From Planctomycetia bacterium (GTDB lineage Bacteria; Planctomycetota; Planctomycetia; Pirellulales; PALSA-1355): a stretch of DNA of 37,442 bases. The stretch is taken from assembly GCA_016200205.1 (NCBI GenBank), contig JACQFF010000135.1, forward strand, positions 1-37,442, written 5' to 3'. Both the position numbers and the translations under genes were made by a program. Below the pieces are notes generated by a model. The model searched no databases and was not told the DNA's origin. It saw only the letters and a list, made by a program, of their open reading frames with translations. How positions within the stretch are numbered: the first letter of the stretch is position 1; each line of letters starts with the position of its first letter. Positions 20,970 to 36,712 of the stretch are shown here, one piece after another.

Positions 20970-22364
20970 CTACTTTGCGGCGGTGGGCATGGTGAACGGT
21001 AGAATGTCCGGCACGACGCTGACTTCGGTCGTGAACTTGAATGGGTACTTGCCGCCGCTGGGATAAATCAGTTCGACGAAGAAGGCCGTGAAGCCCCGGA
21101 CCGGTTTTTCTGCTTTGCCCACGTAAGTGCCATCGGCTTGCGGCTCGAGCGCGGTGCTGGTGTAGGCCTTGCCGATCGTATCGACCCGGAAATCTCGCGC
21201 ATTCGGATTCGTGGCTTGCCAGAGGTTCACCTGGGCCGGATTGTCTCGGACGGTTACCCGCAACGCGCCGTACTTCTCCTTCTTCCAGGAGAATTTTGGT
21301 CGCGCGGTGCCGGCCAGCACCGATTGATAAAACGCTTGCAGGCTTTCCCGCGCGTCGCTGCCTTCCAGGTTGTGCTTTGCATTGGGCACGTAGCGGAGGT
21401 ATTTCTCTTCGGGCAGCTCGTTGTAGTAGAACTGCGAATTGTCGGGCAGGAAGAATTGATCGCCGGAAGCGTTGATCAAATACTTGGGGATTTTCAGTCG
21501 AGGGCGATCGCGGTAGTTGTAGGGATCTTCGATTTTGAGGATTTCGCGATATTCGGGCGTGCCCACCTTGCCGGGAAACAATCCGTGGCGGACATAATCG
21601 TCGAGCGCCGGCGAAAAGAATCCATAAGCCTCGAAATGATGGCGCGTGATGACTTCAGAATTCAACGCGTCGATCACCATCGGAATAATCGCGATCACGC
21701 GGTTATCGACAACGCCCACGAGCCACGTGGTCCAACCGCGCTTCGATCCTCCGGCCACGACGAACTTGTTGATCTTCAACTCTCCGCCCGCTTCGGAAGC
21801 CAGGAATTCTTGCATCGCATCCATCGCCCGCACGCCGCTTTTCACCATCGCCAGGCGCACCAACCACGTCGGATCACGATCTTTGAAATACTTGACGCGG
21901 GTGTAAGCGATCAGGTCGTCTTCGGATCGGCCTTTGTCTTTCGAATCGGTGAAGAAAAGCGGCTGGTTCGGCACGGTGCCTAGCTCGGCTACGACGGTGT
22001 TGGTGCCGACGGCCAATTCGGTGGTGCGTGGGCTGGCCGCCTTGGGCATTGCGTCGCGATTGCTGCCGCCACCGATGAAGAAGAAGGCGGTGTTGCGAGT
22101 CGCTCGATCGGGCTTGACGATCGAAAGCCAATGTTTCCAAACCGGCCGGTCCACGTCGGCCGCCGTGCGCCACGTTTGCGACGTTAGATCGAGCACGTAG
22201 GTGGTGTAGCCCTCGCCAGGGACCGTATTGGCCAGCTTCCACGAGTAAGCTGCGTCGGGCTGGGCAATGTAGCGATCCAGTGCGGTTACATCGCCCAGCA
22301 AAAGCGAGGCGGGAGACGCAACCAGCAGGGCAAGAAACAGCGGCAACAACAGCGCGCATCGCAT
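20970..22364 (-). CDS. PhoPQ-activated pathogenicity-related family alpha/beta hydrolase (exported)
   Basis: 464 residues. A signal peptide (CALLLPLFLALLVASPASLLLG) is followed by the PF10142-type domain: TALDRYIAQPDAAYSWKL near the N-terminus, WKHWLSIVKPD, FFFIGGGSN, and the probable nucleophile S207 in VVAGGSKRGWTTWL. Later IKIPKYLINASGDQFFLPDNS and YVPNAKHNLEGSDA carry the likely acid and histidine of a catalytic triad. The family name comes from Salmonella PqaA; in planctomycetes these are common exported hydrolases with unknown substrates. It is 163 bases downstream of the acetamidase-like gene on the same strand. Confidence 0.9.
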   Translation of the reverse strand: MRCALLLPLFLALLVASPASLLLGDVTALDRYIAQPDAAYSWKLANTVPGEGYTTYVLDLTSQTWRTAADVDRPVWKHWLSIVKPDRATRNTAFFFIGGGSNRDAMPKAASPRTTELAVGTNTVVAELGTVPNQPLFFTDSKDKGRSEDDLIAYTRVKYFKDRDPTWLVRLAMVKSGVRAMDAMQEFLASEAGGELKINKFVVAGGSKRGWTTWLVGVVDNRVIAIIPMVIDALNSEVITRHHFEAYGFFSPALDDYVRHGLFPGKVGTPEYREILKIEDPYNYRDRPRLKIPKYLINASGDQFFLPDNSQFYYNELPEEKYLRYVPNAKHNLEGSDARESLQAFYQSVLAGTARPKFSWKKEKYGALRVTVRDNPAQVNLWQATNPNARDFRVDTIGKAYTSTALEPQADGTYVGKAEKPVRGFTAFFVELIYPSGGKYPFKFTTEVSVVPDILPFTMPTAAK

Positions 22365-23751: not shown

Positions 23752-26700
23752 ATGAAGCGAACTGTCCAGGCTGGGCTCATATCCGCTCTTGTCAGCCTCT
23801 ATTTTCTGAAACCAGCCGCGGCCGACGAGGTGGAGTCGATCGTCAAGACTTTGCGCGTGCCGGCTGGATTTACGGTGGAGTTGGTGGCCGCGGCGCCGTT
23901 GGTGCACCACCCGATCATGGCCGGTTTCGACGATCGGGGGCGGCTGTTCGTGGCGGACAATGCCGGGCTGAATTTGCCGGCCGAAGAATTGCTCAAGCAA
24001 CTGCCCAACATGATTCGTATGTTGGAAGACACCGACGGCGATGGCCGCTTCGACCGCAGTACGCTGTTTGCCGACAAGATGACGTTTCCGCAAGGCGCCG
24101 CGTGGTTTCGCGGCGCCCTTTATGTAGCCAGTCCGCCGAGCATCTGGCGGCTGGAAGATACCGACGGCGACGGCGTGGCGGACCGGCGCGAAGAAATCGT
24201 GCAAAAGTTCGGCTTCACCGGAAATGCGGCCGATATCCACGGCTGCTTTATCACGCCCACGGGGCGGATCGCCTGGTGCGATGGCCGGCACGGTCACGAA
24301 TTCAAGGGCGACAAGGGCCAGATGCCCAGCAAGGGCCTGGCCGCGCGCGTGTTTTCTTGCCGGCCGGATGGCAGTGACGTGGAAGTGTTTTGCGGCGGTG
24401 GGATGGATAATCCGGTGGAAGTCGCCTTCACGCCCGAAGGGGACGTGATCGGCACGATGACCTTTTATAATCCCGACGATGCCCGGCACGATGCCCTGGT
24501 TCATTTTGTCCACGGGGGCGTTTATCCGCGCAAGCATCCTTGCACGAGCGAATTCAAGCGTACCGGCGATTTTCTACCGGCCTTGAGCCGCTTCGGCGCG
24601 GTCGCTCCTTCCGGGCTGACGCGATATAGCAGTGCCACCTGGGGCGAGGAGTTTCGCGACAATTTGTACTCCACTCAGTTCAACACGCACAAAATCGTCC
24701 GGCACGTGCTTTCGCGGCAGGGCGCGACGTACAGTTCGGCGGACGAGGATTTTCTCGTCTCGACGAATGCCGATTTCCATCCCACCGACGTGCTCGAAGA
24801 CGCCGATGGAAGTTTGTTGGTCATTGACACGGGTGGATGGTTTCACATTGGCTGTCCGACTTCGCAAATCGCCAAGCCCCAGATCGGTGGCGGCATCTAT
24901 CGGATTCGCCGCGCGGGAGTCGCGCCGGTTGCCGACCCGCGCGGATTGCAAACGGACTGGGCCCAGGCGTCGGATATTGAACTAGCCGAGCGTTTGGGCG
25001 ACGAGCGGCCGGCGGTTGCCGAGCGGACGCTGGAATTATTGGCCGCGCGGGGCGATCCGGCGATGGGTTCGTTGGCCACCGCCATGTTCGAAAGCACCAG
25101 CTATCGCGCCCGCGAAAACGCCGTCTGGGCTCTGGCGCGCAATGGATCGGACAATGCTCGAAGACTGCTGCGCCAAGCGCTATCGGATGATGATGCTCCG
25201 GTGCGACAAGCGGCCGTGCACAGTGTTTCCGATTTGCGCGACGCCGAGAGTCTGCCGGCGCTGTTGGAGATTTTACAAAAGGACGAGCCGGCCGTGCGGC
25301 GCGAGGCGGCCACCGCGTTGGGCCGCATCGGCAAGGCCGGCGCGGTGCCGGCGCTGCTGGAATCGCTCGGCAAACCGGCCGATCGCTTTGTGGAACATGC
25401 CTTGATTTACGCCTTAATTGAAATCAACGATCGGCCCGCCACGCTGGCCGGCCTGGCTGACCCGCGGCCGGCGGTGCGGCGCGGCGCTTTGATTGCGTTG
25501 GATCAGATGTACCGTGGTCAGTTGACGCGCGAGATCGTCGCGCCGCTCTTGTCGACGGATGACGAGAATCTAATGCGGGCGCTGGTGGAGATTCTGGCCA
25601 AGCACCCGGATTGGGCCGACGAACTGACGAGCCTCGTCGCGGGATGGCTTTCCGAGGCGAGCCCTTCGGCCGAACAACTGGCAACGGTTCGTGGGGCGAT
25701 CTCGGCCTTGATCCAACGGCCGGCCGTGCAAAACCTCGTCGTCGGCCCGCTCGAGAGCGACACAACCGACAGGCAAATTCGCCTGATGCTTTTGGAAGTG
25801 ATCGCTGCCGGCGAGTACGCGAAAATGCCGGCGAATTGGCGCGATGCACTCGGAAAAAACCTGGCCTCGAACGACGGCGAAATTCTTCGTCAGGCGATCG
25901 CGACCGTAGCGGCTCTCGACGTCAGGCCATTTACGGCGAGGCTGATGGACATCGGGATCGACGGCCAACGTCCTGCCGATGTGCGGATCGCCGCGCTGTG
26001 TGCCGCCGCGAAAAACAGTCCGAGCCTGCCGGAAGCGGGCTTCGAGTTTCTATCCAGTCAACTGGAAAACGAGGGTCCGCTGCGAGACCGCCTGGCCGCG
26101 GCCGAAGCGCTGGGTGGCATGGCGCTCAGCGCGCCGCAATTGGAAGCCGCGGCTCGGCTGGCCGCGCACTGCGGCCCCTTGGAGATCTCTTGGCTGGTGC
26201 GAGCATTTGCCCACGATACGAATGCTCGCACGGGGCGGCTGCTCATCGACTCCCTGTCGAGGTCGCCGGCACTAGCCAGCCTTCCGGCGGAACGTCTGCG
26301 CGAAGCGTTTAAAAACTATCCCGGCGAAGTGCAGCTTGCGCTGCAACCGCTGATTGATCGCCTTGCAGGCGACGACCAAGAGCGGGCGGCAAAAATGAAG
26401 TCGCTGGAGAAATCGACCGGAAGCGGTGATTCGGCCCAAGGGGAGAATGTGTTTTTCGGTACTCGCGCGGCATGTGCGGCCTGCCACCGAATTGGTGGGC
26501 GTGGAGAAAAGATCGGGCCCGACTTGTCCAAGATCGGTGAAGTCCGCAATCACCGCGACCTTCTCGAAGCCATTCTCTTCCCAAGCGCCAGCCTGGCGCG
26601 CGGCTATGAAAGTTTTCACGTCGTGACCAAATCGGGGCAAGTGCACAGCGGGCTCCTGAGCCGCGAAGCGTCCGCGGCGATTTATTTGCGCACCACCGAG

Positions 26701-26841
26701 CGGATCGAAGTTCGCGTGGACCGCAGCGACATTGAGGAACTGTCGCCGAGCCAGACTTCGATCATGCCCCAGGGCATGGAGAAAATCCTGTCGCCGCGCG
26801 AGCTCGCCGACGTGGTTGCCTACCTGCAATCGCTCAAGTGA
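23752..26841 (+). CDS. PVC-type membrane-bound dehydrogenase/HEAT-repeat/cytochrome c protein
   Basis: 1029 residues. After a signal peptide (1-24) comes a beta-propeller-like dehydrogenase domain (about 30-385; planctomycete TIGR02604 type): VPAGFTVELVAAAPLVHHPIMAGFDDRGRLFVAD, MLEDTDGDGRFDRSTLFAD, RLEDTDGDGVADRREEIV, FHPTDVLEDADGSLLVIDTGGW. A HEAT-repeat solenoid follows (about 400-860; e.g. DDDAPVRQAAVHSVSDLRD and KDEPAVRREAATALGRIG). The C-terminus (about 895-1029; TIGR02603 type) has one heme c site CAACH (908-912) and the distal motif SIMPQGMEKILSPRELADVVAYLQSL. It is expected in the periplasm/paryphoplasm as a heme-bearing oxidoreductase acting on sugars or alcohols; substrate unknown. 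No defects were seen. Confidence 0.93.
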   Translation: MKRTVQAGLISALVSLYFLKPAAADEVESIVKTLRVPAGFTVELVAAAPLVHHPIMAGFDDRGRLFVADNAGLNLPAEELLKQLPNMIRMLEDTDGDGRFDRSTLFADKMTFPQGAAWFRGALYVASPPSIWRLEDTDGDGVADRREEIVQKFGFTGNAADIHGCFITPTGRIAWCDGRHGHEFKGDKGQMPSKGLAARVFSCRPDGSDVEVFCGGGMDNPVEVAFTPEGDVIGTMTFYNPDDARHDALVHFVHGGVYPRKHPCTSEFKRTGDFLPALSRFGAVAPSGLTRYSSATWGEEFRDNLYSTQFNTHKIVRHVLSRQGATYSSADEDFLVSTNADFHPTDVLEDADGSLLVIDTGGWFHIGCPTSQIAKPQIGGGIYRIRRAGVAPVADPRGLQTDWAQASDIELAERLGDERPAVAERTLELLAARGDPAMGSLATAMFESTSYRARENAVWALARNGSDNARRLLRQALSDDDAPVRQAAVHSVSDLRDAESLPALLEILQKDEPAVRREAATALGRIGKAGAVPALLESLGKPADRFVEHALIYALIEINDRPATLAGLADPRPAVRRGALIALDQMYRGQLTREIVAPLLSTDDENLMRALVEILAKHPDWADELTSLVAGWLSEASPSAEQLATVRGAISALIQRPAVQNLVVGPLESDTTDRQIRLMLLEVIAAGEYAKMPANWRDALGKNLASNDGEILRQAIATVAALDVRPFTARLMDIGIDGQRPADVRIAALCAAAKNSPSLPEAGFEFLSSQLENEGPLRDRLAAAEALGGMALSAPQLEAAARLAAHCGPLEISWLVRAFAHDTNARTGRLLIDSLSRSPALASLPAERLREAFKNYPGEVQLALQPLIDRLAGDDQERAAKMKSLEKSTGSGDSAQGENVFFGTRAACAACHRIGGRGEKIGPDLSKIGEVRNHRDLLEAILFPSASLARGYESFHVVTKSGQVHSGLLSREASAAIYLRTTERIEVRVDRSDIEELSPSQTSIMPQGMEKILSPRELADVVAYLQSLK

Positions 26842-26878: not shown

Positions 26879-29800
26879 CTACGCGTTCGGCAGCAAGTGC
26901 ATGTGTTCCAAGACCGAGTGCTTCGAGGAGCCGCCCAACTGGTCCAGTTCCCACGTTACCACCCAGCGACGCCACGAGATAGGCGTGGCCGCGAACACCC
27001 AGCGCCGGCGATCCAGTTCGGTCACGTTGGGTTCAGTTCCCGCGCGGTGATCTGCCGGTTCCAGGGGCGGCCAACCTCGCAAAGGGAGAATCCGCGGTGG
27101 AGCATCGCGACCGGACCAGATCGCCAGGCTATCCTCGGTGATTTCGTACCCTCGGGAGCCGGGCTCCAGGCGGGCTTCGACCTGCTCGCGCACTAAATCG
27201 ATGCCCGCCATTTTGTAGACGCCGGCCAAGGCGTTGGCCAGCGTGTGTCGCCGCGGGTGGGAGAGCGCGTCGGACCATCCGTGACGGTAGACGCTGGCGA
27301 CCAGCCGGCCGGCCTGTTCCTCAAATGCCAGCCACATGCTCTCTTCGGCCAGATCGGGGCAATACAGTTCCACGAGAATTCGGTTGCAGCCCAAGTGAAT
27401 TTCACCGGTCGTAATCGAGCGGTCGGCCCAACCACGGCTTTCGTGCAGCAGCACCAACAACTCGCGATCGACAAAGCGGCGCAGCGCCTCGCTCGCATGA
27501 TGCAACCCGTCCAGATACTTGCTCGCGGCTTTCCAATTCAGCGTCCAATAAGCTTTGCGGTTCGCGCGGCGAAGTTTGGCGTACAGTTTGGGGACCGTGC
27601 CCGAGCGAAAGCCGGGCTTGAGAAACTGCAGCATCGTCTCGCCGTGGTGACCGATGGAGACTGGCCGCAAGTCGGCGGGGCGATTGGCGGCGTACAACCG
27701 CCAATTCTCTTTCAGCTCCCACACGAGAAATCCAAAAATACCCGGCGTCAGGAAGACCGCGGTGGGCGCGATCGTGTAAGCCCAGGCGGTTCCCAACGGT
27801 CCAGCCAAGGCGCTTCGCAGGGCCGGCATCATCGGCAGCAAAACCTTGTGCGACACGGTCACCACGGGGAAGTGTTTGATCGGGTTGACTTGCGGCTCGA
27901 TGAGCAGGTTGACGCAGAAGCGAATCACGTAGTTCACGAAGAACCAGAAGAAGCCCAAAACCGCCTTGGCGACGGTGGACGAAATGCGCTCGCCGGCTCG
28001 AAAGCGGAGCCATTCATCGACCGTATAGAGCAACCGCTCGATGCTCTCCAAAATGCGGTTGAACACGTCCATGATCAGCCGGAACATCGCCGCGAAAACA
28101 TGAATGCGGATGCGATGCCAGGTGAGCACGGCCCAATCGGTCACCATTTCGTCGACGTTGCGGCCGATCCGTGAATTGAGTAGCGCATTGACCACGACGA
28201 AAATGACCAAGGAACTGCCCAGTGTGACTTCGCGGTCGAAAACCACCGCGATCACCGGCGCAGCCAGCACCGTGACCACCGCCGGCTTGAACACGTACCG
28301 CTTGAAAAGCTGGAATTGCCAACTATGGACAACCGCTTGGACGATCGGTTGCCGCAAGATCCAAGCCGGCATGTCGATGAACAGGCGACGGCAGACCTGG
28401 ATTGCGCGAATCGCGCCCTGGAGGCAAAAATTGCGAAACCGCTGGTGGTAGAGCAGGCCCATCAGAAACAGGCCCAGCGTCAGGACCGAGAGGGCCAGTT
28501 CGAAAGGCATCAGGTGCAATTCAGCGTCACTTCCCAGCGCATGCGAGACCATCAAGACGAGGTGTAGCGATCCTTCCAAGGCAATATAAGCCCCGCCAAA
28601 AGGCAGTGCGGCATAGCGAGTCAAGAACCGGCCCTGGGGAGTTCCAAACGCCAAAGAACTGAGCCGTTGAGGCCAGCGCAGGTAGATTTCACCCCCGCGG
28701 TAGACGCCGTCGAGACTGGCAGCCAGATGCGTGTCGGCCTGCAAAAGCTGGTCGCCGAGCAGAAACTGCTTGACGCTGACCAGGTCGGGCAACTTGAGGT
28801 TGTTGCGCGATAACGCGTCGCGCAGATCGCCCATCGATAAGAAGCCGCGTTCGACGATGCGGTCCAGAATCTCATCGACCAGTTTTTTGCGCGCGACGCG
28901 CTCCGGCGGGTTTTGGGGCAACAGTTTCACCTTGTCCAAGGCGTGATCGATGACCGGCTTGAAGCGAGCCCGCAGGCTGGCTTCGGCCCGGTGCACCGCA
29001 GATTGCAACAGCGCGGCCAGGCGGCTGCGATTGCGGTTGGAGAGCCGGGCGGCCGGCAGCCGGCGGGCCGCCCCTCGCAGATGTTTCGAAATCAGCACGT
29101 CGCGCTGCCCGGGCAAAAACCGCTTGACGGGCTTGCGCCCCAGCGAGGTCGCCCAGCCGATCGCGTCCAACGTATAAACTCCACGTTCGTGGTCGACGCA
29201 CACTTTTTGCAGATCGTAGAGCATCCGCGCTTCGGCCGTCCAAATGCCGCGCGCCGATTGATCGAGCAGCGATACCAACGATTTGGTCCACTCCTCCGTT
29301 TCGCCGGAAGTGAAATTGAGGGCCGCCTGCATCCGGCGAGCCAGGCGTTCGAGTTCCGCCCGGGCGTCGTCGCCAGCACGATGCGCCACCTCCGGATTGG
29401 CATAGCGGGCCGCGCGGGTGCGCAAAATGGCGGCGCGCACTAAATTGCCGAGCGAACCGACACGATCGGCTTTCGCCAACAGCGCCGCCGCCGTCCGTTG
29501 CGAGCGTTTGCGGACCGGCAAACGCCGCGGCTGCTCGTCTCGGGGGCTGCCAAGGCCCAATCGCTCGCCGCCGGGCAACTCGCCACGCCAGCTTGGATCG
29601 GAGACCCCCGGCGGTCGAGTGGCGGCCAGCAGGCTCTCGCCGTCAACGTCGTGCTTCAACAATTCGTCGATGTAATGATAATCCTGTAGCGAAGGAAAAT
29701 AGCCGCGCAAAAAGTTGGGCACGAAATGCCGCAGCTCCAGGTACACCGCCACAAACTCGACGTACACCGTCAGGTCAGTCTTGGGAGGCAACAAATAATC

Positions 29801-30304
29801 TTCCTGACGCAGCACATCGCGAATTTCCTCGAATTCGGAGGCGCCGATTTGTTGAATCCGGGCATGAAGCTCGCTTTCGCCTAGCCTCCCCTCGGCAATC
29901 ACTTGGTTGAGCGCGACGTGGATGCGGATATGGAACAACTGCCGCCAGAATTTGACCAATGCCTCTTCCGCCGAAAGGGCGGCCAGCGTTTCGGTCGTGG
30001 GGCGGGCGATCAAAATGATGTTGTCGGCAAGTTCGGCATCGGCCGCCAGGTCGAGTTCCGCACGATCGACCAGCGCGAGCAACTTTTCCCGCGCTATCAC
30101 GTAGGTTTTGCGATGCGGCACGCGCAAACCCAGGCCACTCACTCCGGCGTTCTGCTTGATCACCCGGCGCAGAATTCGGGGGGCCACCAAAAAAGCCGCC
30201 GGATCGGTCGCGCGCACCGCCTGATCTAGTTCTTCAAGGCCCAGCCCCTCGGGCCGGTCTTCGGCAGGCGTGTGTTGGACCAGTTGGGCCATACAGGCTT
30301 TCAC
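26879..30304 (-). CDS. Large membrane protein of unknown function (1141 aa)
   Basis: I do not recognise this family. The N-terminal 560 residues are soluble, helical and charged: an Arg-rich stretch with PVRKRSQRTAAALL near 260-280, RRMQAALNFTSGETEEW, and RKKLVDEILDRIVERGFLSMGDLRDALSRNNLKLPDL, which reads like a winged-helix-type fold. From about 565 to 865 there are at least five hydrophobic segments, e.g. LALSVLTLGLFLMGLLY, PAVVTVLAAPVIAVVF, VLGFFWFFVNYVIRFCVNLLI and YTIAPTAVFLTPGIFGFLVW, between basic amphipathic helices. The C-terminal 270 residues are again soluble (KLYAKLRRANRKAYWTLNWKAASKYLDGLHH). The start could be GTG at 30304 or ATG at 30292. It is not linked to either neighbour: convergent on one side, 234 bases of repeat on the other. 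A planctomycete-specific membrane protein is likely. Confidence 0.8.
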   Translation of the reverse strand: MKACMAQLVQHTPAEDRPEGLGLEELDQAVRATDPAAFLVAPRILRRVIKQNAGVSGLGLRVPHRKTYVIAREKLLALVDRAELDLAADAELADNIILIARPTTETLAALSAEEALVKFWRQLFHIRIHVALNQVIAEGRLGESELHARIQQIGASEFEEIRDVLRQEDYLLPPKTDLTVYVEFVAVYLELRHFVPNFLRGYFPSLQDYHYIDELLKHDVDGESLLAATRPPGVSDPSWRGELPGGERLGLGSPRDEQPRRLPVRKRSQRTAAALLAKADRVGSLGNLVRAAILRTRAARYANPEVAHRAGDDARAELERLARRMQAALNFTSGETEEWTKSLVSLLDQSARGIWTAEARMLYDLQKVCVDHERGVYTLDAIGWATSLGRKPVKRFLPGQRDVLISKHLRGAARRLPAARLSNRNRSRLAALLQSAVHRAEASLRARFKPVIDHALDKVKLLPQNPPERVARKKLVDEILDRIVERGFLSMGDLRDALSRNNLKLPDLVSVKQFLLGDQLLQADTHLAASLDGVYRGGEIYLRWPQRLSSLAFGTPQGRFLTRYAALPFGGAYIALEGSLHLVLMVSHALGSDAELHLMPFELALSVLTLGLFLMGLLYHQRFRNFCLQGAIRAIQVCRRLFIDMPAWILRQPIVQAVVHSWQFQLFKRYVFKPAVVTVLAAPVIAVVFDREVTLGSSLVIFVVVNALLNSRIGRNVDEMVTDWAVLTWHRIRIHVFAAMFRLIMDVFNRILESIERLLYTVDEWLRFRAGERISSTVAKAVLGFFWFFVNYVIRFCVNLLIEPQVNPIKHFPVVTVSHKVLLPMMPALRSALAGPLGTAWAYTIAPTAVFLTPGIFGFLVWELKENWRLYAANRPADLRPVSIGHHGETMLQFLKPGFRSGTVPKLYAKLRRANRKAYWTLNWKAASKYLDGLHHASEALRRFVDRELLVLLHESRGWADRSITTGEIHLGCNRILVELYCPDLAEESMWLAFEEQAGRLVASVYRHGWSDALSHPRRHTLANALAGVYKMAGIDLVREQVEARLEPGSRGYEITEDSLAIWSGRDAPPRILPLRGWPPLEPADHRAGTEPNVTELDRRRWVFAATPISWRRWVVTWELDQLGGSSKHSVLEHMHLLPNA

Positions 30305-30538: not shown

Positions 30539-33500
30539 TCAAGCGGAGTTGGGCTTTGACTCGCCGAAAAGTGAATAGAGAACGGGGAAGACTAGCAGCG
30601 TCAGGACCAGCGAACTGATGATGCCGCCCACGACGACCGTTGCGAGGGGCCGCTGCACCTCGGCTCCGACGGCCGTGGCCAGCATCATCGGCACAAACCC
30701 CAATGCCGCGGTGGCCGAGGTCATCAGAACCGGCCGCAGCCGCAACACGCCGGCCTCGTACACCGCTTCGTCAAGCGATCGGCCCTCGGCCAACAGTTTG
30801 TGAATGTACGAAACCAGTACCAGTCCGTTGAGCACGGCGATGCCAAACAGAGCTACGAAGCCGACGGCCGCGGAAATCGAAAACGGCAGTTGGGCCAGAT
30901 AGAGCGAGACCACGCCGCCGACAACGGCAAACGGCACCCCGCTGAAAATCAGGCAGGCGTCGCGGACGGAATTGAACGTGGCGTAGAGCAAGATAAAGAT
31001 CAACAAGCCCGCCAACGGCACGATAATCAACAGCCGCTGATAACCGCGCTGCATGTGCTCGAACTGGCCTCCCCAAGTGACGTGGTAACCGGGGGGCCAC
31101 GATTTTGTCACTTCGGCGACACGGCGGCGCGCCTCTTCGACAAACGAGCCCGTATCTCGGCCGCGAATATTGCATTGCACCAGCATGCGTCGTTTGGCCC
31201 ATTCGCGGGAAATGACCGTCGGCGTCTCGACTTGCTCGATGTGCGACAGGCGCGACAAGGGCAGTTGTACGCCTTTGGGAGTGCAGACCAGGATCTGGCC
31301 GATCGCTTCCGGATCGATCCGATATTTTTCGGCCAGCCGCACGACCAGTGGGAATCGGCGTTGGCCTTCATAAACTTCACCCACGCGCGGAGTGCCCAGG
31401 GCCTGGACCGTGCTGAGCACGTCGCGGCGGGGGATGCCGTAGCGCGACAGGGCTTCTTCGTCGACCGTGATCTTCACGACCGACGTATTGGTGAGTTGAT
31501 CCGGAACCACGCCGTGCGCGCCGTCGATGGCGCGGACCGTGTGTGCGATTTGTTCGGTGAATGCGACTAATTTGTCGTAATCCTCGCCGAAAACCTTGAT
31601 GCCCAAGTCGCCGCGAATCCCGGCGATCATTTCGTTGATGCGCTGTTCGATGGGCTGTGTGAACAGCATTTGCATGCCCGGCATTCCCTCGACCAGTTCT
31701 TTCATCTGTGCGACCAGCTCGTCTTGGGTGCGCGCCCGCCGCCACTGATTGCGCGGTTTGAGCGTGATAAACACGTCGCTTAGATCCAGGCCCATGGGGT
31801 CGGTGGCGACTTCGGCGGTGCCGGTGCGGGTCCAGATATGCTTGATCTCGTCCGGAAACCGTTCGAGCAGCAACTTTTCCAACTGCGTGCCGTACCGGAC
31901 CGATTCTTGCAGCGAGACGCTCGCCAGCCGCTGCGTCGCGATGACCACCGAACCTTCACTTAGGCGGGGAATGAATTCGGTCCCGAGCTCGAAGCTCAGG
32001 ATTACGGCGCTGGCCAAGAGCGCCACTGACAGCGAAACGACGCCCAGCCGGTTGCCCAGCACCCAACGGAGCACGGGCCGATAGAGCCATTGTGAAAATC
32101 GCACCAGGAGGGGCTCTTTTTCCGACATCCGCTTGGGCAGAAAAATTCCGGCCAAGGCGGGCATCAGGGTCAACGACAGGACCAGCGATCCGGCCAGCGC
32201 AAACAACACCGTCAACGCCATCGGGCGGAACATTTTGCCTTCGATGCCTTCCAGCGTGAGGATCGGCAAATACACGATCATGATGATCAGTTCGCCAAAC
32301 ATCGTCGGCTTGCGGACTTCCACGCAGGCGTCATGCACGACGTCAACGACGGGCCTCCCGGCACGGTTTTCGGACAGGTGGCGCACGGAGTTTTCGATCA
32401 TGATTACCGAGCTATCGACGATAATTCCGAAGTCGATGGCCCCCAGGCTCATCAGGCTGCCGACGATGCCGGCTTGCAGCATCAGATTTCCGGCGACCAT
32501 GAAAGACAAGGGAATCGCCGTGGCCACGATCAGTCCGGCCCGCAATCCACCGCCCAAGGCAAACAGCGCGGCAATCACCAAAATGGCCCCGAAGAATAAG
32601 TTGTGCCTGGCCGTGGCCAACACTTCGTCGACCAGATCAGTGCGCGCCAGCACTTCTTCAATATGTACGCCGAGCGGCAGGTTGGGCTTGATCTCGTCCA
32701 TTTTCTCCCGCAGCCGCTCGGTAACGGCGCGGCTGTTCTCTCCCATGAGCATGAAGCCCATTCCCAGAATTACTTCCCCTTTGCCTTCCGCCGTGACAGC
32801 GCCCGAGGGGATTTCGTGACCGATTTCGACCTCGGCCACGTCGCGTACCCTCACTGGCTGGCCTTCGTGCTCTTTGAGCACGATGTGGGCGATGTCGACC
32901 GTGCTCGTTAGCCGGCCGATGCCTTGAATGAGCTGGATTTCGCCGGCACGCTGCATGCTTCCGCCGCCGACGTTGGCGTTATTGGTTTTGAGGGCTTCGA
33001 CGACGTCGTTGAGCGTCAAATTGAATTTAACCAGCCGGGCTGGATCAAACAGAACATGAAACTGCTTCTCGTAGCCACCCCAGGTATTGACTTCGGCCAC
33101 GCCCGGCACCGTACGCAATTGCGCTTTGACGAGAAAGCGGTGAATGGTGCGCAACTCCGTCAGGTCATGACGATCGCTGGTGAGCAAGTAGTGGTAGACC
33201 TCGCCCAGTCCGGTGGCGATGGGGCCCAAAACGGGCTTGTTCACGCCGGAAGTTTCCGGCAGCTCGGCGCTAGCGATCCGCTCGCCGACCAATTGTCGCG
33301 CGCGGAGAATATCGGTCCCGCTTTCGAAAACGGTGGTGACTTGCGAGAGGCCGGTTTTGGAAATCGAGCGTACTTCTTGCAAACCCGGCAGCCCGGCAAT
33401 CACCTGCTCCAGAGGATACGTGACTTGTGTTTCGATATCGCCGGGGCCCAGCGACGGCGCGGTCGTATTGACTTGCACCATGACGGGCGTGGTGTCGGGA

Positions 33501-33616
33501 AAGGCGTCGATCGGCAATTGCCGAAACGCCGCCATCCCGCTCAGCACCAAGATGGCGGCCAGAACCAGCATGAGCAGCCGCTGCTCGAGGCTGAAGGTAA
33601 TGATCTTGTTCAACAT
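30539..33616 (-). CDS. czcA: Heavy-metal efflux RND pump, CzcA/CusA family
   Basis: 1025 residues, an inner-membrane proton-driven pump of the HME-RND family for divalent or monovalent heavy-metal ions. The start MLNKIITFSLEQRLLMLVLAAILVL is TM1, then the periplasmic porter domain (LPIDAFPDTTPVMVQV, VTYPLEQVIAGLPGL). The HME proton-relay motif is intact: D395 and D401 in AIDFGIIVDSS, E408 in MIEN, with the spacing of the D402/D408/E415 triad in CzcA. The second half has EFIPRLSEGSVVIATQR, GDLGIKVFGEDYDKL and the last TM bundle. Metal specificity is not decided. The adaptor gene is upstream on the same strand with 136 bases of repeat between; no outer-membrane factor gene is seen in the window. 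Confidence 0.93.
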   Translation of the reverse strand: MLNKIITFSLEQRLLMLVLAAILVLSGMAAFRQLPIDAFPDTTPVMVQVNTTAPSLGPGDIETQVTYPLEQVIAGLPGLQEVRSISKTGLSQVTTVFESGTDILRARQLVGERIASAELPETSGVNKPVLGPIATGLGEVYHYLLTSDRHDLTELRTIHRFLVKAQLRTVPGVAEVNTWGGYEKQFHVLFDPARLVKFNLTLNDVVEALKTNNANVGGGSMQRAGEIQLIQGIGRLTSTVDIAHIVLKEHEGQPVRVRDVAEVEIGHEIPSGAVTAEGKGEVILGMGFMLMGENSRAVTERLREKMDEIKPNLPLGVHIEEVLARTDLVDEVLATARHNLFFGAILVIAALFALGGGLRAGLIVATAIPLSFMVAGNLMLQAGIVGSLMSLGAIDFGIIVDSSVIMIENSVRHLSENRAGRPVVDVVHDACVEVRKPTMFGELIIMIVYLPILTLEGIEGKMFRPMALTVLFALAGSLVLSLTLMPALAGIFLPKRMSEKEPLLVRFSQWLYRPVLRWVLGNRLGVVSLSVALLASAVILSFELGTEFIPRLSEGSVVIATQRLASVSLQESVRYGTQLEKLLLERFPDEIKHIWTRTGTAEVATDPMGLDLSDVFITLKPRNQWRRARTQDELVAQMKELVEGMPGMQMLFTQPIEQRINEMIAGIRGDLGIKVFGEDYDKLVAFTEQIAHTVRAIDGAHGVVPDQLTNTSVVKITVDEEALSRYGIPRRDVLSTVQALGTPRVGEVYEGQRRFPLVVRLAEKYRIDPEAIGQILVCTPKGVQLPLSRLSHIEQVETPTVISREWAKRRMLVQCNIRGRDTGSFVEEARRRVAEVTKSWPPGYHVTWGGQFEHMQRGYQRLLIIVPLAGLLIFILLYATFNSVRDACLIFSGVPFAVVGGVVSLYLAQLPFSISAAVGFVALFGIAVLNGLVLVSYIHKLLAEGRSLDEAVYEAGVLRLRPVLMTSATAALGFVPMMLATAVGAEVQRPLATVVVGGIISSLVLTLLVFPVLYSLFGESKPNSA

Positions 33617-33636
33617 CGGCCCGCTCGTTTAAACCT

Positions 33637-33747
33637 TGTTTCAAATCCCTCTCCCGCTGGGAGAGGGCAGGGTGAGGGTCTTTGTCTTCTCCGGATTCCC
33701 CCTCACCCCAACCCTCTCCCAAAGGGAGAGGGAGACGTGTTGAAACA
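33637..33747. repeat. REP-like double hairpin between adaptor and pump genes
   Basis: Two 9-bp perfect stems, CCCTCTCCC/GGGAGAGGG, at 33647-33667 (3-base loop) and 33712-33732 (loop AAA) are joined by a spacer whose edges are also inverted (GGTGAGGG versus CCCTCACCCC). Outer TGTTTCAA (33637-33644) and TTGAAACA (33740-33747) close the block. It fills almost all of the czcB-czcA gap, so it is transcribed within the operon and could stabilise the upstream mRNA or reduce downstream expression. It belongs to the same family as positions 1-85. Confidence 0.8.
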
Positions 33748-33752
33748 GCCCC

Positions 33753-34985
33753 TTATTCGACTTTGCCGAAGTCGGGATTCTCTAAATTTGATTTGAGGAG
33801 AAAACTTCCGGTGGTGGCTACCTTTTCACCGGCCTGAAGTCCCGCGGTGACTTCCCAAAACGGATCGCTTTTGAGCCCGACCACAATCCGGCGTACCTCA
33901 AAAAAATTGTCCCGCTGCTGCACGAAAACAATGTGGTCGCCATGGTGCGACTGCACGGCCGATTGTGGCACGACAAGACGATCGTGAGTTTTTTCCACAA
34001 CCAGTTCGCCTTTGCCGAACATATTGGCCCGCAGCGCGCCCTCGCGATTGGCCACCTCGGCGCGTAACTGGATGGTGCGCGTCTGGGGGTCGACTTCCGG
34101 GCTGATCCAAGTGACCGTGCCGGTGAATCCCTGGTCCGGCAATCCATCGGGGAAAAACGTCACGCTCTGGCCCAGTCGTATATGCGGCAAATAGCTTTCA
34201 TAGACGTGCAGGTGAAGCCACATCGACTCCAAATCGGCGATGGCAAAAAGCGGCGTTTGGGTGTGGGCCGGTTCTCCTTCGACCGCTTGCCGCTGCACGA
34301 TCACTCCGTCGCGAGGGGCCATGACAGGCAACTGAACGCTCATGTCCTTCGTTTGCACGATCTGCCGAACCTGGTCGGGCGAATAGCCGAATTCTCCCAG
34401 CCTGTCCTTGAATCGCAAAGTGTCGGCGATCTGTTCTTCCAGCAAATGCTCCGTTTCCAGCACATTTTTGGCGGCAAGAGCCTGCTGTTCGGACAGCGTT
34501 TTGTACTGGCTCAGTTGCCACCGCAAATGGCCTTCGTGGATAATCGCTTTGAGATACGAAGCTTTCAGGTCTCCCGCGACCTGCGAATTCACCACGGCCA
34601 GAATCTCGCCCGAATGAACCCTTGATCCGACGTCAACCTTGATTTCCCGCAAAACGCCCTCGGCCTTGGGCGGTACTTTGACATAACTATTCTGATTGAA
34701 GCCGGCGCTGCCGTTGCACGAAATCGTGCTTTCCACCGGGCGCGCTTCGACGGCCGCGACCTCAATGCCGGCCGCGGCGCGCAGCTCGCCCCGGTTGAGC
34801 CGTATCGAGGTTTGCTCGCGCGGATCGGCGTTGGCCACCGCGGCGCCCATTTCTTCGGCCCCTTTGTCGATGGGCCGATTGGCTTGAACGGCGATCCAAA
34901 CCAACAGCACCGAAACCAGCCCCCCGACGGGCAAGGCGATCATGATGATTCGGTGACGGGGCCGTTGTCGGATGAATTGGACCAT
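33753..34985 (-). CDS. czcB: RND periplasmic adaptor (membrane fusion protein), CzcB/CusB family
   Basis: About 410 residues from the ATG at 34985. An N-terminal anchor helix (IIMIALPVGGLVSVLLVWIAV) is followed by the HlyD-like parts. The lipoyl half-motif is in SAGFNQNSYVKVPPKAEGVLREIKVDVGSRVHSGEILAVV, then a helical hairpin (LKASYLKAIIHEGHLRWQLSQYKTLSEQQALAAKNVLETEHLL), the second lipoyl half (MAPRDGVIVQRQAVEGEPA), and a beta-barrel (LGQSVTFFPDGLPDQGFTGTVTWISPEVDPQTRTIQLRAEV). It links the pump to an outer-membrane channel. The frame is open to 35105, but that extension is not signal-like and would overlap the small exported protein gene. GGGAGAG at 34994-35000 favours 34985 (34991 is an alternative in the same frame). 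Confidence 0.88.
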   Translation of the reverse strand: MVQFIRQRPRHRIIMIALPVGGLVSVLLVWIAVQANRPIDKGAEEMGAAVANADPREQTSIRLNRGELRAAAGIEVAAVEARPVESTISCNGSAGFNQNSYVKVPPKAEGVLREIKVDVGSRVHSGEILAVVNSQVAGDLKASYLKAIIHEGHLRWQLSQYKTLSEQQALAAKNVLETEHLLEEQIADTLRFKDRLGEFGYSPDQVRQIVQTKDMSVQLPVMAPRDGVIVQRQAVEGEPAHTQTPLFAIADLESMWLHLHVYESYLPHIRLGQSVTFFPDGLPDQGFTGTVTWISPEVDPQTRTIQLRAEVANREGALRANMFGKGELVVEKTHDRLVVPQSAVQSHHGDHIVFVQQRDNFFEVRRIVVGLKSDPFWEVTAGLQAGEKVATTGSFLLKSNLENPDFGKVE

Positions 34986-35085
34986 GGCCATCGCTCTCCC
35001 AAAAAAGCCAAACACGAACCGACGATTGGAGAATCGCGCGTACGAGCTTACCGCGGCGTTCAATTGCGCGGCGTGGGAGGGCAGT

Positions 35086-35472
35086 TCAGATTTGCCAAGA
35101 GGCAATCAGCGCGCGCACCATTCGCCCGGAACGGGGAGGCCGCCATAAGAGATCGCGCGCATCCGGCTCTGCGGAGGATTGCAAATCCGAAACCGAAGCC
35201 GTCGGCGTGAGCACGAGATGGGCGAGCGCAATCAACTTGCCCTGCTGCTCGAGATCGGCCAGAAGACAAGGAATTCCGACCGGCGCGCCCTTGCACAGGC
35301 AGCCCGACTCATTCGGATCCGCTTCTTGGGGATCCGAGATAGGTGGCGTCTCTCGGTCAGCGGCGGTCGCCAGCGCGCAAAGCCTCACGTCGACGTACAG
35401 ACAATGCACCGCACGCGCGAAGATCACAAGGGCCAAGCAGCCGACAAACAACCTACGAGCTAGCATGTTCAA
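35086..35472 (-). CDS. Small exported Cys-containing protein upstream of the metal pump
   Basis: 128 residues, minus strand, ending about 100 bases before the adaptor start, so it is likely the first gene of the efflux operon. The N-terminus is signal-like (RRLFVGCLALVIFARAVHC). The mature part has a C-x-C then C motif in GCLCKGAPVGIPC (C58, C60, C69) that could bind metal or form a disulfide. The rest (QGKLIALAHLVLTPTASVSDLQ) is not recognised. Alternative start ATG at 35466. A metal-related role is inferred from position and cysteines only. Confidence 0.62.
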   Translation of the reverse strand: MNMLARRLFVGCLALVIFARAVHCLYVDVRLCALATAADRETPPISDPQEADPNESGCLCKGAPVGIPCLLADLEQQGKLIALAHLVLTPTASVSDLQSSAEPDARDLLWRPPRSGRMVRALIASWQI

Positions 35473-35674: not shown

Positions 35675-36712
35675 TCAGGCGGCTTCCCGCTCGGTGCTCA
35701 GCCAGCGCAGACCGTGCAGAATGATCGCCAACACGCCCACGGCGGCCAACACGGTCTTGATTTGATCGCCGGTGGTTTCGCCGGCCAAGTCCTGCCAGCC
35801 GAGAAATTGCGTCTCCGGCGATTGCGGCGCAACCACAGGGTTGTTCGCCACGCTCGGTGTCGCCGCTGGCGCGCCGGCGGGCAAAGGCACTGAGCGAATC
35901 GTCGTTGTGCCGACGCGCGTCGCCGCGGCGGGGGCAGTATCAGCTTGACGCGCTTGCGACTTGGTTTCGGCCACGAGTGGCTGCGTGACAACTGGCTGAG
36001 GCGGTCGCGCGGGGGCCACCGCAAGCAGTTGGGCATTGTCTGGCGAGTTGGGCACAACGCTCGAAAGGAACCATTTGACGCGCCCGCAATAACTTCCCGA
36101 CGTGCGGCCATGACCTTCGCCAAACAAGACACCCGCCAATTCTCCTCGACTGTTGAAGATCGGCCCGCCCGAATCCCCCTGACGCGCAGAGACCGCTACC
36201 TCGACCATTTCATAGGGAAACGCCGTGCCGGGCGCCACGTATTGGGTGCAACGGCCGCTGGCGGCACGATATTCGCCCGAGCCATAACCGGCAATGGTCA
36301 ATACTTCGCCGGGACGCGGTGCTTGGTTTGCCACGGGCACGCTTTGGGCGTTCGGCTTTTTGATGGCGATCGCGGCCAAATCCCAATCGCGGTCGATTTT
36401 CTGAATCGAGCCAATCGAATAGAAGCCATCCGGAAAATGGACCGAGATCGGGCCGGTGGCTTCATTGACCACGTGCCAATTGGTCAGCACGACCCCATAT
36501 TGGTCGTTCACCGAGACCAGCGTGCCCGAGCCATACGAAATACTTCCTTGGCCGGGCGCCACGATGCGTACCACGGCCGGGTGAATGGTCGGCGGTTTGG
36601 GCCAGTCGGCCGCGCGGGGCAGCGTGCCGAACAGGCTATTTGGCGCGGTTCCTTGCGCAAACGCGGAAACCGCGCCGAGCAAGCAAAACCCGATGGCCAA
36701 CAAAAGCTTCAC
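35675..36712 (-). CDS. Trypsin-like serine protease with C-terminal membrane anchor
   Basis: 345 residues. A signal peptide (LLLAIGFCLLGAVSAFA) precedes a trypsin-like domain with triad H80 (LTNWHVV), D111 (RDWDLAAIAI) and S181 (RQGDSGGPI). C155 and C209 could form a disulfide. After the domain comes a Pro/Ala/Thr-rich linker (about 225-300) and a final hydrophobic helix (VLAAVGVLAIILHGL, about 319-334), so the protease is probably exported and held at the membrane by its C-terminus. It starts at a GTG whose TGA overlap (GTGA) ends the 41-residue gene upstream, so the two are translationally coupled. The operon with a ribbon-helix-helix protein is unusual for such a protease. Confidence 0.86.
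   Translation of the reverse strand: MKLLLAIGFCLLGAVSAFAQGTAPNSLFGTLPRAADWPKPPTIHPAVVRIVAPGQGSISYGSGTLVSVNDQYGVVLTNWHVVNEATGPISVHFPDGFYSIGSIQKIDRDWDLAAIAIKKPNAQSVPVANQAPRPGEVLTIAGYGSGEYRAASGRCTQYVAPGTAFPYEMVEVAVSARQGDSGGPIFNSRGELAGVLFGEGHGRTSGSYCGRVKWFLSSVVPNSPDNAQLLAVAPARPPQPVVTQPLVAETKSQARQADTAPAAATRVGTTTIRSVPLPAGAPAATPSVANNPVVAPQSPETQFLGWQDLAGETTGDQIKTVLAAVGVLAIILHGLRWLSTEREAA

Follow-up and report, generated by a model that had tools for sequence, protein, structure and literature searches.

The locus and its reading frame

The DNA analysed here, called the window below, is a stretch of 37,442 nucleotides from a planctomycete assembly (GCA_016200205.1, contig JACQFF010000135.1). The listing of its open reading frames contains a minus-strand frame of 1141 codons at positions 26879-30304, termed P0001, and the plus strand has several stops across the same interval. 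In 100 mononucleotide shuffles of the whole window the longest stop-free run never exceeded 452 codons (mean, 268), so that the length of P0001 is not due to chance. Residue 5 of the frame is a methionine (ATG at 30292), which aligns with the start or an early methionine of the related proteins from three genomes (G001, G002 and G003). The start is therefore probably this ATG, giving 1137 amino acids, rather than GTG at 30304. The 1141-residue frame reported in the initial annotation is thus present on the minus strand, although the shorter product is likelier. Residues are numbered throughout as in P0001 counted from the GTG at 30304 (1141 amino acids). The gene is present as a single copy in its own genome, the copy in the window contains no stop, and a scan for a promoter and a terminator at the gene found nothing exceeding shuffles.

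A plus-strand gene at 23752-26841 is convergent with the P0001 gene at a distance of 37 bp; its 1029-residue product combines DUF7133 and a cytochrome c domain with HEAT repeats. Just upstream of the P0001 gene, at 30539-35105 on the minus strand, are genes for an RND-type efflux pump (ACR_tran) and its HlyD_D23 membrane-fusion partner, resembling CusB/CusA. The window also encodes a Trypsin_2 protease (35675-36712, minus strand) and a PhoPQ_related protein (PF10142, E 5.5e-120; 20970-22364, minus strand). The features assigned to P0001 are as follows, where TM denotes a transmembrane helix.

26879..30292, minus strand: coding sequence in its likeliest extent, ATG at 30292, stop at 26879-26881, 1137 amino acids (comparison with relatives)
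28685..30247, minus strand: N-terminal all-helical soluble domain, residues ~20-540, predicted to be cytosolic (AlphaFold, hydropathy)
28538..28600, minus strand: TM1, residues ~569-589 (family hydropathy, model helices)
28448..28507, minus strand: TM2, residues ~600-619 (hydropathy, model)
28238..28297, minus strand: TM3, residues ~670-689 (hydropathy, model)
28172..28225, minus strand: TM4, residues ~694-711 (hydropathy, model)
28001..28171, minus strand: long amphipathic helix, residues 712-768 (a single helix in both models, charge counts, conservation)
27899..27955, minus strand: TM5, residues ~784-802 (hydropathy, charge, conservation)
27845..27898, minus strand: most conserved block, residues 803-820, EPQxNPxKHFPxxTxSHK (conservation in 92 sequences)
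27815..27871, minus strand: hydrophobic segment with K820, residues ~812-830, re-entrant or a full helix (hydropathy, model, charge)
27719..27775, minus strand: last TM, residues ~844-862 (hydropathy, charge)
27596..27742, minus strand: conserved blocks at and after the end of the last TM, GxxGFLVWELKENW (855-868), GxHGE (885-889) and GFHSGT (898-903)
26882..27595, minus strand: C-terminal soluble part, residues ~904-1141 (models)

Domain layout and membrane topology

P0001 consists of a helical domain, a membrane part (~541-875) and a C-terminal part, the first and the last of which are predicted to be cytosolic. Hydropathy averaged over 39 members gives strong peaks at about 565-589, 600-619, 670-689, 691-711, 784-802 and 844-862, with a weaker peak at 812-830; residues 730-752 form a charged amphipathic stretch. 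An N-terminal export signal is not apparent in this 39-member average, where no hydrophobic segment passes the threshold before residue 557. AlphaFold models were obtained for the full-length protein (pLDDT 80.3, pTM 0.76; 21 sequences) and for the membrane and C-terminal part, residues 538-1063 (pLDDT 92.4, pTM 0.67; 92 sequences). In the models the C-terminal part consists of helices, a four-stranded sheet and a further helix; it is less conserved and is shortened in some relatives, the matches from bacterial family f8 ending near residues 1035-1046. A soluble helical part followed by membrane segments and a soluble C-terminal part had been proposed in the initial annotation, and both the averaged hydropathy and the two models agree with this layout.

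The orientation in the membrane can be estimated from charges in the 92 members. The loop between TM1 and TM2 varies in length from 6 to 107 residues, and thus is probably outside; its mean charge is +0.9/-2.2, compared with +8.6/-1.9 for the TM2-TM3 loop and +11.0/-3.9 for residues 863-916. Positive-inside counts hence favour a cytosolic location for the TM2-TM3 loop and residues 863-916 and an external one for the TM1-TM2 loop. With both termini inside, the number of crossings should be even, which suggests six TM helices with 812-830 as a re-entrant segment, a topology drawn from these counts and not from coordinates. Alternatively, the chain would cross seven times and leave the C-terminus outside, contrary to the charge rule; residues 808-837 form one helix in the AlphaFold model, which could cross the membrane. 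The last TM is uncharged in all 92 members.

Conservation and distribution of the family

Conservation is highest around the last membrane helices, with mean values of 0.59-0.73 at residues 801-900 versus 0.37-0.39 at residues 601-700. Residues invariant in 92 of 92 members are G558, P568, P674, W787, E803, P804, P808, K810, P813, K820, G855, G858, W862, E863, W868 and G902. The charged ones among them, E803, K810, K820 and E863, are grouped around the last two membrane helices. R795 in the middle of TM5 and H819 are found in 84/92 and 85/92 members, respectively, and the amphipathic helix carries a conserved YxVDEWLRF motif (Y760, D763, R767).

Homologues were found in 23 of the 57 nearest genomes, 63/296 genomes of the order, 98/198 of the class and 20/294 of the phylum, and in 16/246 genomes of the phylum by the 92-sequence profile, counts that each include the own genome, come from overlapping samples and may miss copies hidden by incomplete genomes. 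The sharper query thus did not extend the range of the family. The homologues, conserved over their full length with 25-71% identity across trimmed columns, belong to several families and classes of Planctomycetota, although most of the listed genomes of bacterial family f15 are without one. A scan of all species with exact 8-residue patterns, which has low sensitivity, gave two relatives, one from Planctomycetaceae and one from a Pirellulales metagenome assembly; plasmids gave none, and the 47 pattern matches on viral contigs included no relative. So far as sampled, mainly in planctomycete genomes, members have come from Planctomycetota only.

The dN/dS values of P0001 against three relatives (Nei-Gojobori) are 0.19, 0.21 and 0.20, rough values given a dS of 1.2-1.6. 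By these sequence comparisons the family is old, conserved and under purifying selection. Selection had previously been argued from the intact frame, an argument that is weak alone, but its conclusion stands by dN/dS. P0001 is a real gene, for which conservation is stronger evidence than the length of the frame. Relatives from four genomes (G378, G669, G635 and G600) carry one in-frame stop each and are either decaying copies or sequencing errors. That the frame in the window is decaying, or is no gene at all, has a negligible probability, considering the low dN/dS, the full-length relatives in many bacterial families and the stop-free copy in the window.

A tree of 128 members groups them mostly by bacterial family. 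Within bacterial family f112 there are two or more deeply separated paralogue groups, and some copies from f15 are placed among those of f21, a pattern suggestive of ancient duplication and loss together with a degree of transfer. Longer forms, in open frames of 1306-1447 amino acids, are found in distant genomes, two of which have two copies; these distant planctomycetes (G163 and G062; loci L088, L090, L091 and L130) have two long copies each, in frames of 1306-1407 amino acids.

Gene neighbourhood

Among 78 loci surveyed over about 4-20 kb each, the P0001 family has no conserved gene neighbour. The commonest neighbour cluster, a protein-kinase-like gene, occurs at 10/78 loci. Pfam assignments for 112 scanned of 127 selected neighbours gave Trypsin_2 four times and PPK2 three times, the rest being equally rare or generic. 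Neither the efflux pair nor the DUF7133 gene of the window is a neighbour general to the family, neighbours similar to the latter occurring at 7/78 loci.

A trypsin-like protease gene is near the P0001 family gene at 4/78 loci, which are all the loci of bacterial family f1 examined (the window, L058, L059 and L060). In G002 and G003 it is the gene directly upstream, at 89-113 bp; in G001 and the window it is also upstream but not adjacent, with efflux genes between in the window and L058. As a partner it was set aside, since it is confined to a single bacterial family. At three loci (L063, L064 and L184) an ABC-transporter ATPase gene is found 0-11 bp upstream. From their sequences these genes read as a mixture of the branched-chain and the polar amino-acid types, and with two different transporter types this looks like chance adjacency. 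In one f112 paralogue group (L156, L158 and L160, from G593, G604 and G618) the next gene downstream, 24-90 bp away and in the same orientation, reads from its sequence as a Ser/Thr kinase; at a further f112 locus (L172) this gene is at 757 bp.

Comparison with known families and folds

The initial annotation had recognised no family or domain in P0001, and profile searches and structure prediction yield no acceptable family or fold match either. With Pfam-A nothing passes the curated cut-off (best DUF1707, E 0.43, 11.1 bits against a cut-off of 27.6), NCBIfam 20.0 gives zero matches to P0001, and neither library has an acceptable match to any of the 21 members in the first alignment. Three proteins of the family have no match in PHROGs 4 or PADLOC-DB 2.0. 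Searches of PDB sequences reach E 0.38 at best with a profile of 21 full-length members and 0.39 with 92 domain sequences. Pfam rows for these 92 sequences, DUF6199 in two members (best E 0.0025), DUF4910 in one (E 0.0042) and ExsD in one (E 0.008), are not recurrent over the family. Judged by sequence, the family thus appears to have no close known system in Pfam-A, NCBIfam, PHROGs, PADLOC-DB or PDB. In the literature searched the motif strings of the family were unmatched, and no description of it was found. GMBLW1_25620 was considered as a member and rejected; it is a predicted lipoprotein (PMC8567305), which places it outside the family.

Structural comparison gives the same picture. Foldseek against PDB has 0/118 rows at E <=0.001 with the full-length model and 0/201 with the model of residues 538-1063, and a viral structure library has 0/426 rows at this threshold. 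No acceptable match to a known transporter or sensor family has emerged in the sequence libraries or in Foldseek against PDB. With VIA-align the best Z is 8.2 for the full-length model, where the match covers 60 helical residues in the N-terminal domain, and 5.8 for residues 538-1063; both are within the range called common arrangement and are no proof of a new fold. The N-terminal domain was modelled as part of the full-length protein only. Resemblance of its residues 264-448 to TPR or MIT was not accepted as an identity, Z being at most 8.2 and within the same common range.

P0001 might also belong, as a highly divergent member, to a known family of membrane proteins, for instance the six-TM TRP or voltage-gated cation channels, but this is improbable. 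In these channels too a large cytosolic N-terminal domain precedes the membrane part, in which four helices and an amphipathic linker lead to two pore helices around a re-entrant segment, with a conserved helix after them; P0001 has a similar layout, with its elements in this order and a conserved segment between its last two membrane helices. The NCBIfam model 'trp' matches 3/21 members weakly (best E 0.063), and TRPM2 and TRPM3 are among the top rows of the full-length fold search. These rows, however, have E of 0.74 and worse, TM-scores of 0.05-0.11 and rmsd of 33-41 Å, and no significant sequence or fold match connects P0001 with such channels; the curated channel models (NCBIfam trp, Pfam ion channels) do not match P0001. 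In the better model of residues 538-1063, no TRP or voltage-gated channel is among the 50 matches listed per search. The identity is thus unsustained by this model, although absence from the matches listed is not exclusion.

Possible functions

Conserved charges in or beside membrane helices are commoner in transport or catalysis than in anchors. In P0001 the invariant charges of the membrane region fit a transporter or an enzyme no less well than a structural protein. The reading tentatively preferred here, though at well below even chances, is that P0001 acts on its own in the planctomycete inner membrane, as a permeation or carrier protein whose cytosolic domain senses. Both termini are predicted to be cytosolic, and between them the prediction has four TM helices, then the long amphipathic helix and TM5, then a conserved hydrophobic segment in which lysines are invariant, and finally the last TM. 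The invariant polar and charged residues concentrated at TM5, 803-820 and 855-903 would together make up a single functional site within or next to the membrane, while sensing or gating might fall to the large cytosolic domain. The likeliest activity would be to let an ion or a small solute permeate or to carry it across. The positive-inside counts and the low dN/dS are consistent with such a protein, and the lack of a recurrent partner gene with its acting alone. On the other hand, it matches no transporter or channel family by sequence and no structure significantly, the re-entrant topology comes from positive-inside counts while the 808-837 helix could cross, and the conserved charges are equally apt for an enzyme. 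An organiser of the envelope and a membrane enzyme are nearly as likely. What is established for the family is only its existence, conservation, selection and approximate layout.

The first of these, the cell-envelope role suggested in the initial annotation, is possible but rather doubtful: P0001 would be an envelope-organising or membrane-shaping anchor with a large cytosolic helical scaffold and neither transport nor catalysis. Half of P0001 is the helical soluble domain, whose sole structural echoes are the TPR- or MIT-like pieces mentioned above, and the models place long amphipathic helices at the membrane. The distribution of the family follows planctomycetes, whose membranes are unusual (PMC8567305). 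Against this, conservation is strongest at the membrane and its edges, with invariant charges, and not in the scaffold, many planctomycetes of the same order or class have no homologue, and the TPR/MIT Z values are common ones.

A membrane-embedded enzyme with an active site at 803-820 and 885-903, acting on a lipid-linked or amphipathic substrate, is more doubtful still. It would fit the E, K, H, N and S residues that are invariant close to the surface of the membrane. The C-terminal part gives scattered weak rows to GNAT acetyltransferases (Z ~4), and the membrane enzyme MprF, a lysyl-phosphatidylglycerol synthase in which a cytosolic alpha/beta domain likewise comes after the membrane part, appears in Foldseek at E 3.5 (full-length model) and 1.3 (538-1063 model) with TM-scores of ~0.1. 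All of these structural rows are non-significant, however, and NTF2/cystatin-like folds (prob 0.54-0.77, E >0.4) match the C-terminal part as well as GNAT or better. This part is, moreover, less conserved and partly absent in f8. No enzyme family is found by sequence, and Pfam flippase and synthase domains are absent for P0001 (E <=10) and among the families listed for 21 members (E <=1).

A bolder version of the transport or catalytic reading, to which we likewise give little probability, is that P0001 has a membrane-protein fold absent from solved structures. It would then be a planctomycete transport or catalytic machine, its core containing the EPQxNPxKHFPxxTxSHK and WELKENW motifs and steered by the large cytosolic helical domain, and would have no relative among the transporters, channels and membrane enzymes described so far. 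In that case a lineage-specific membrane function would have persisted throughout a phylum whose membranes are unusual, and the family would merit its own family entry; otherwise P0001 is another of many unannotated planctomycete proteins. According to PMC10632474, 1477 of 4258 proteins of Planctopirus limnophila are Planctomycetes-specific and 1281 of these are hypothetical or DUF proteins, by which measure P0001 is ordinary in kind. It shares with such proteins the lack of annotation and a sampled range within Planctomycetota only, but differs in its large size and very strongly conserved membrane core; in size, spread and core it is above the typical hypothetical protein. The alignment and the positions of the motifs allow searches for the family and indicate residues for a first mutation.
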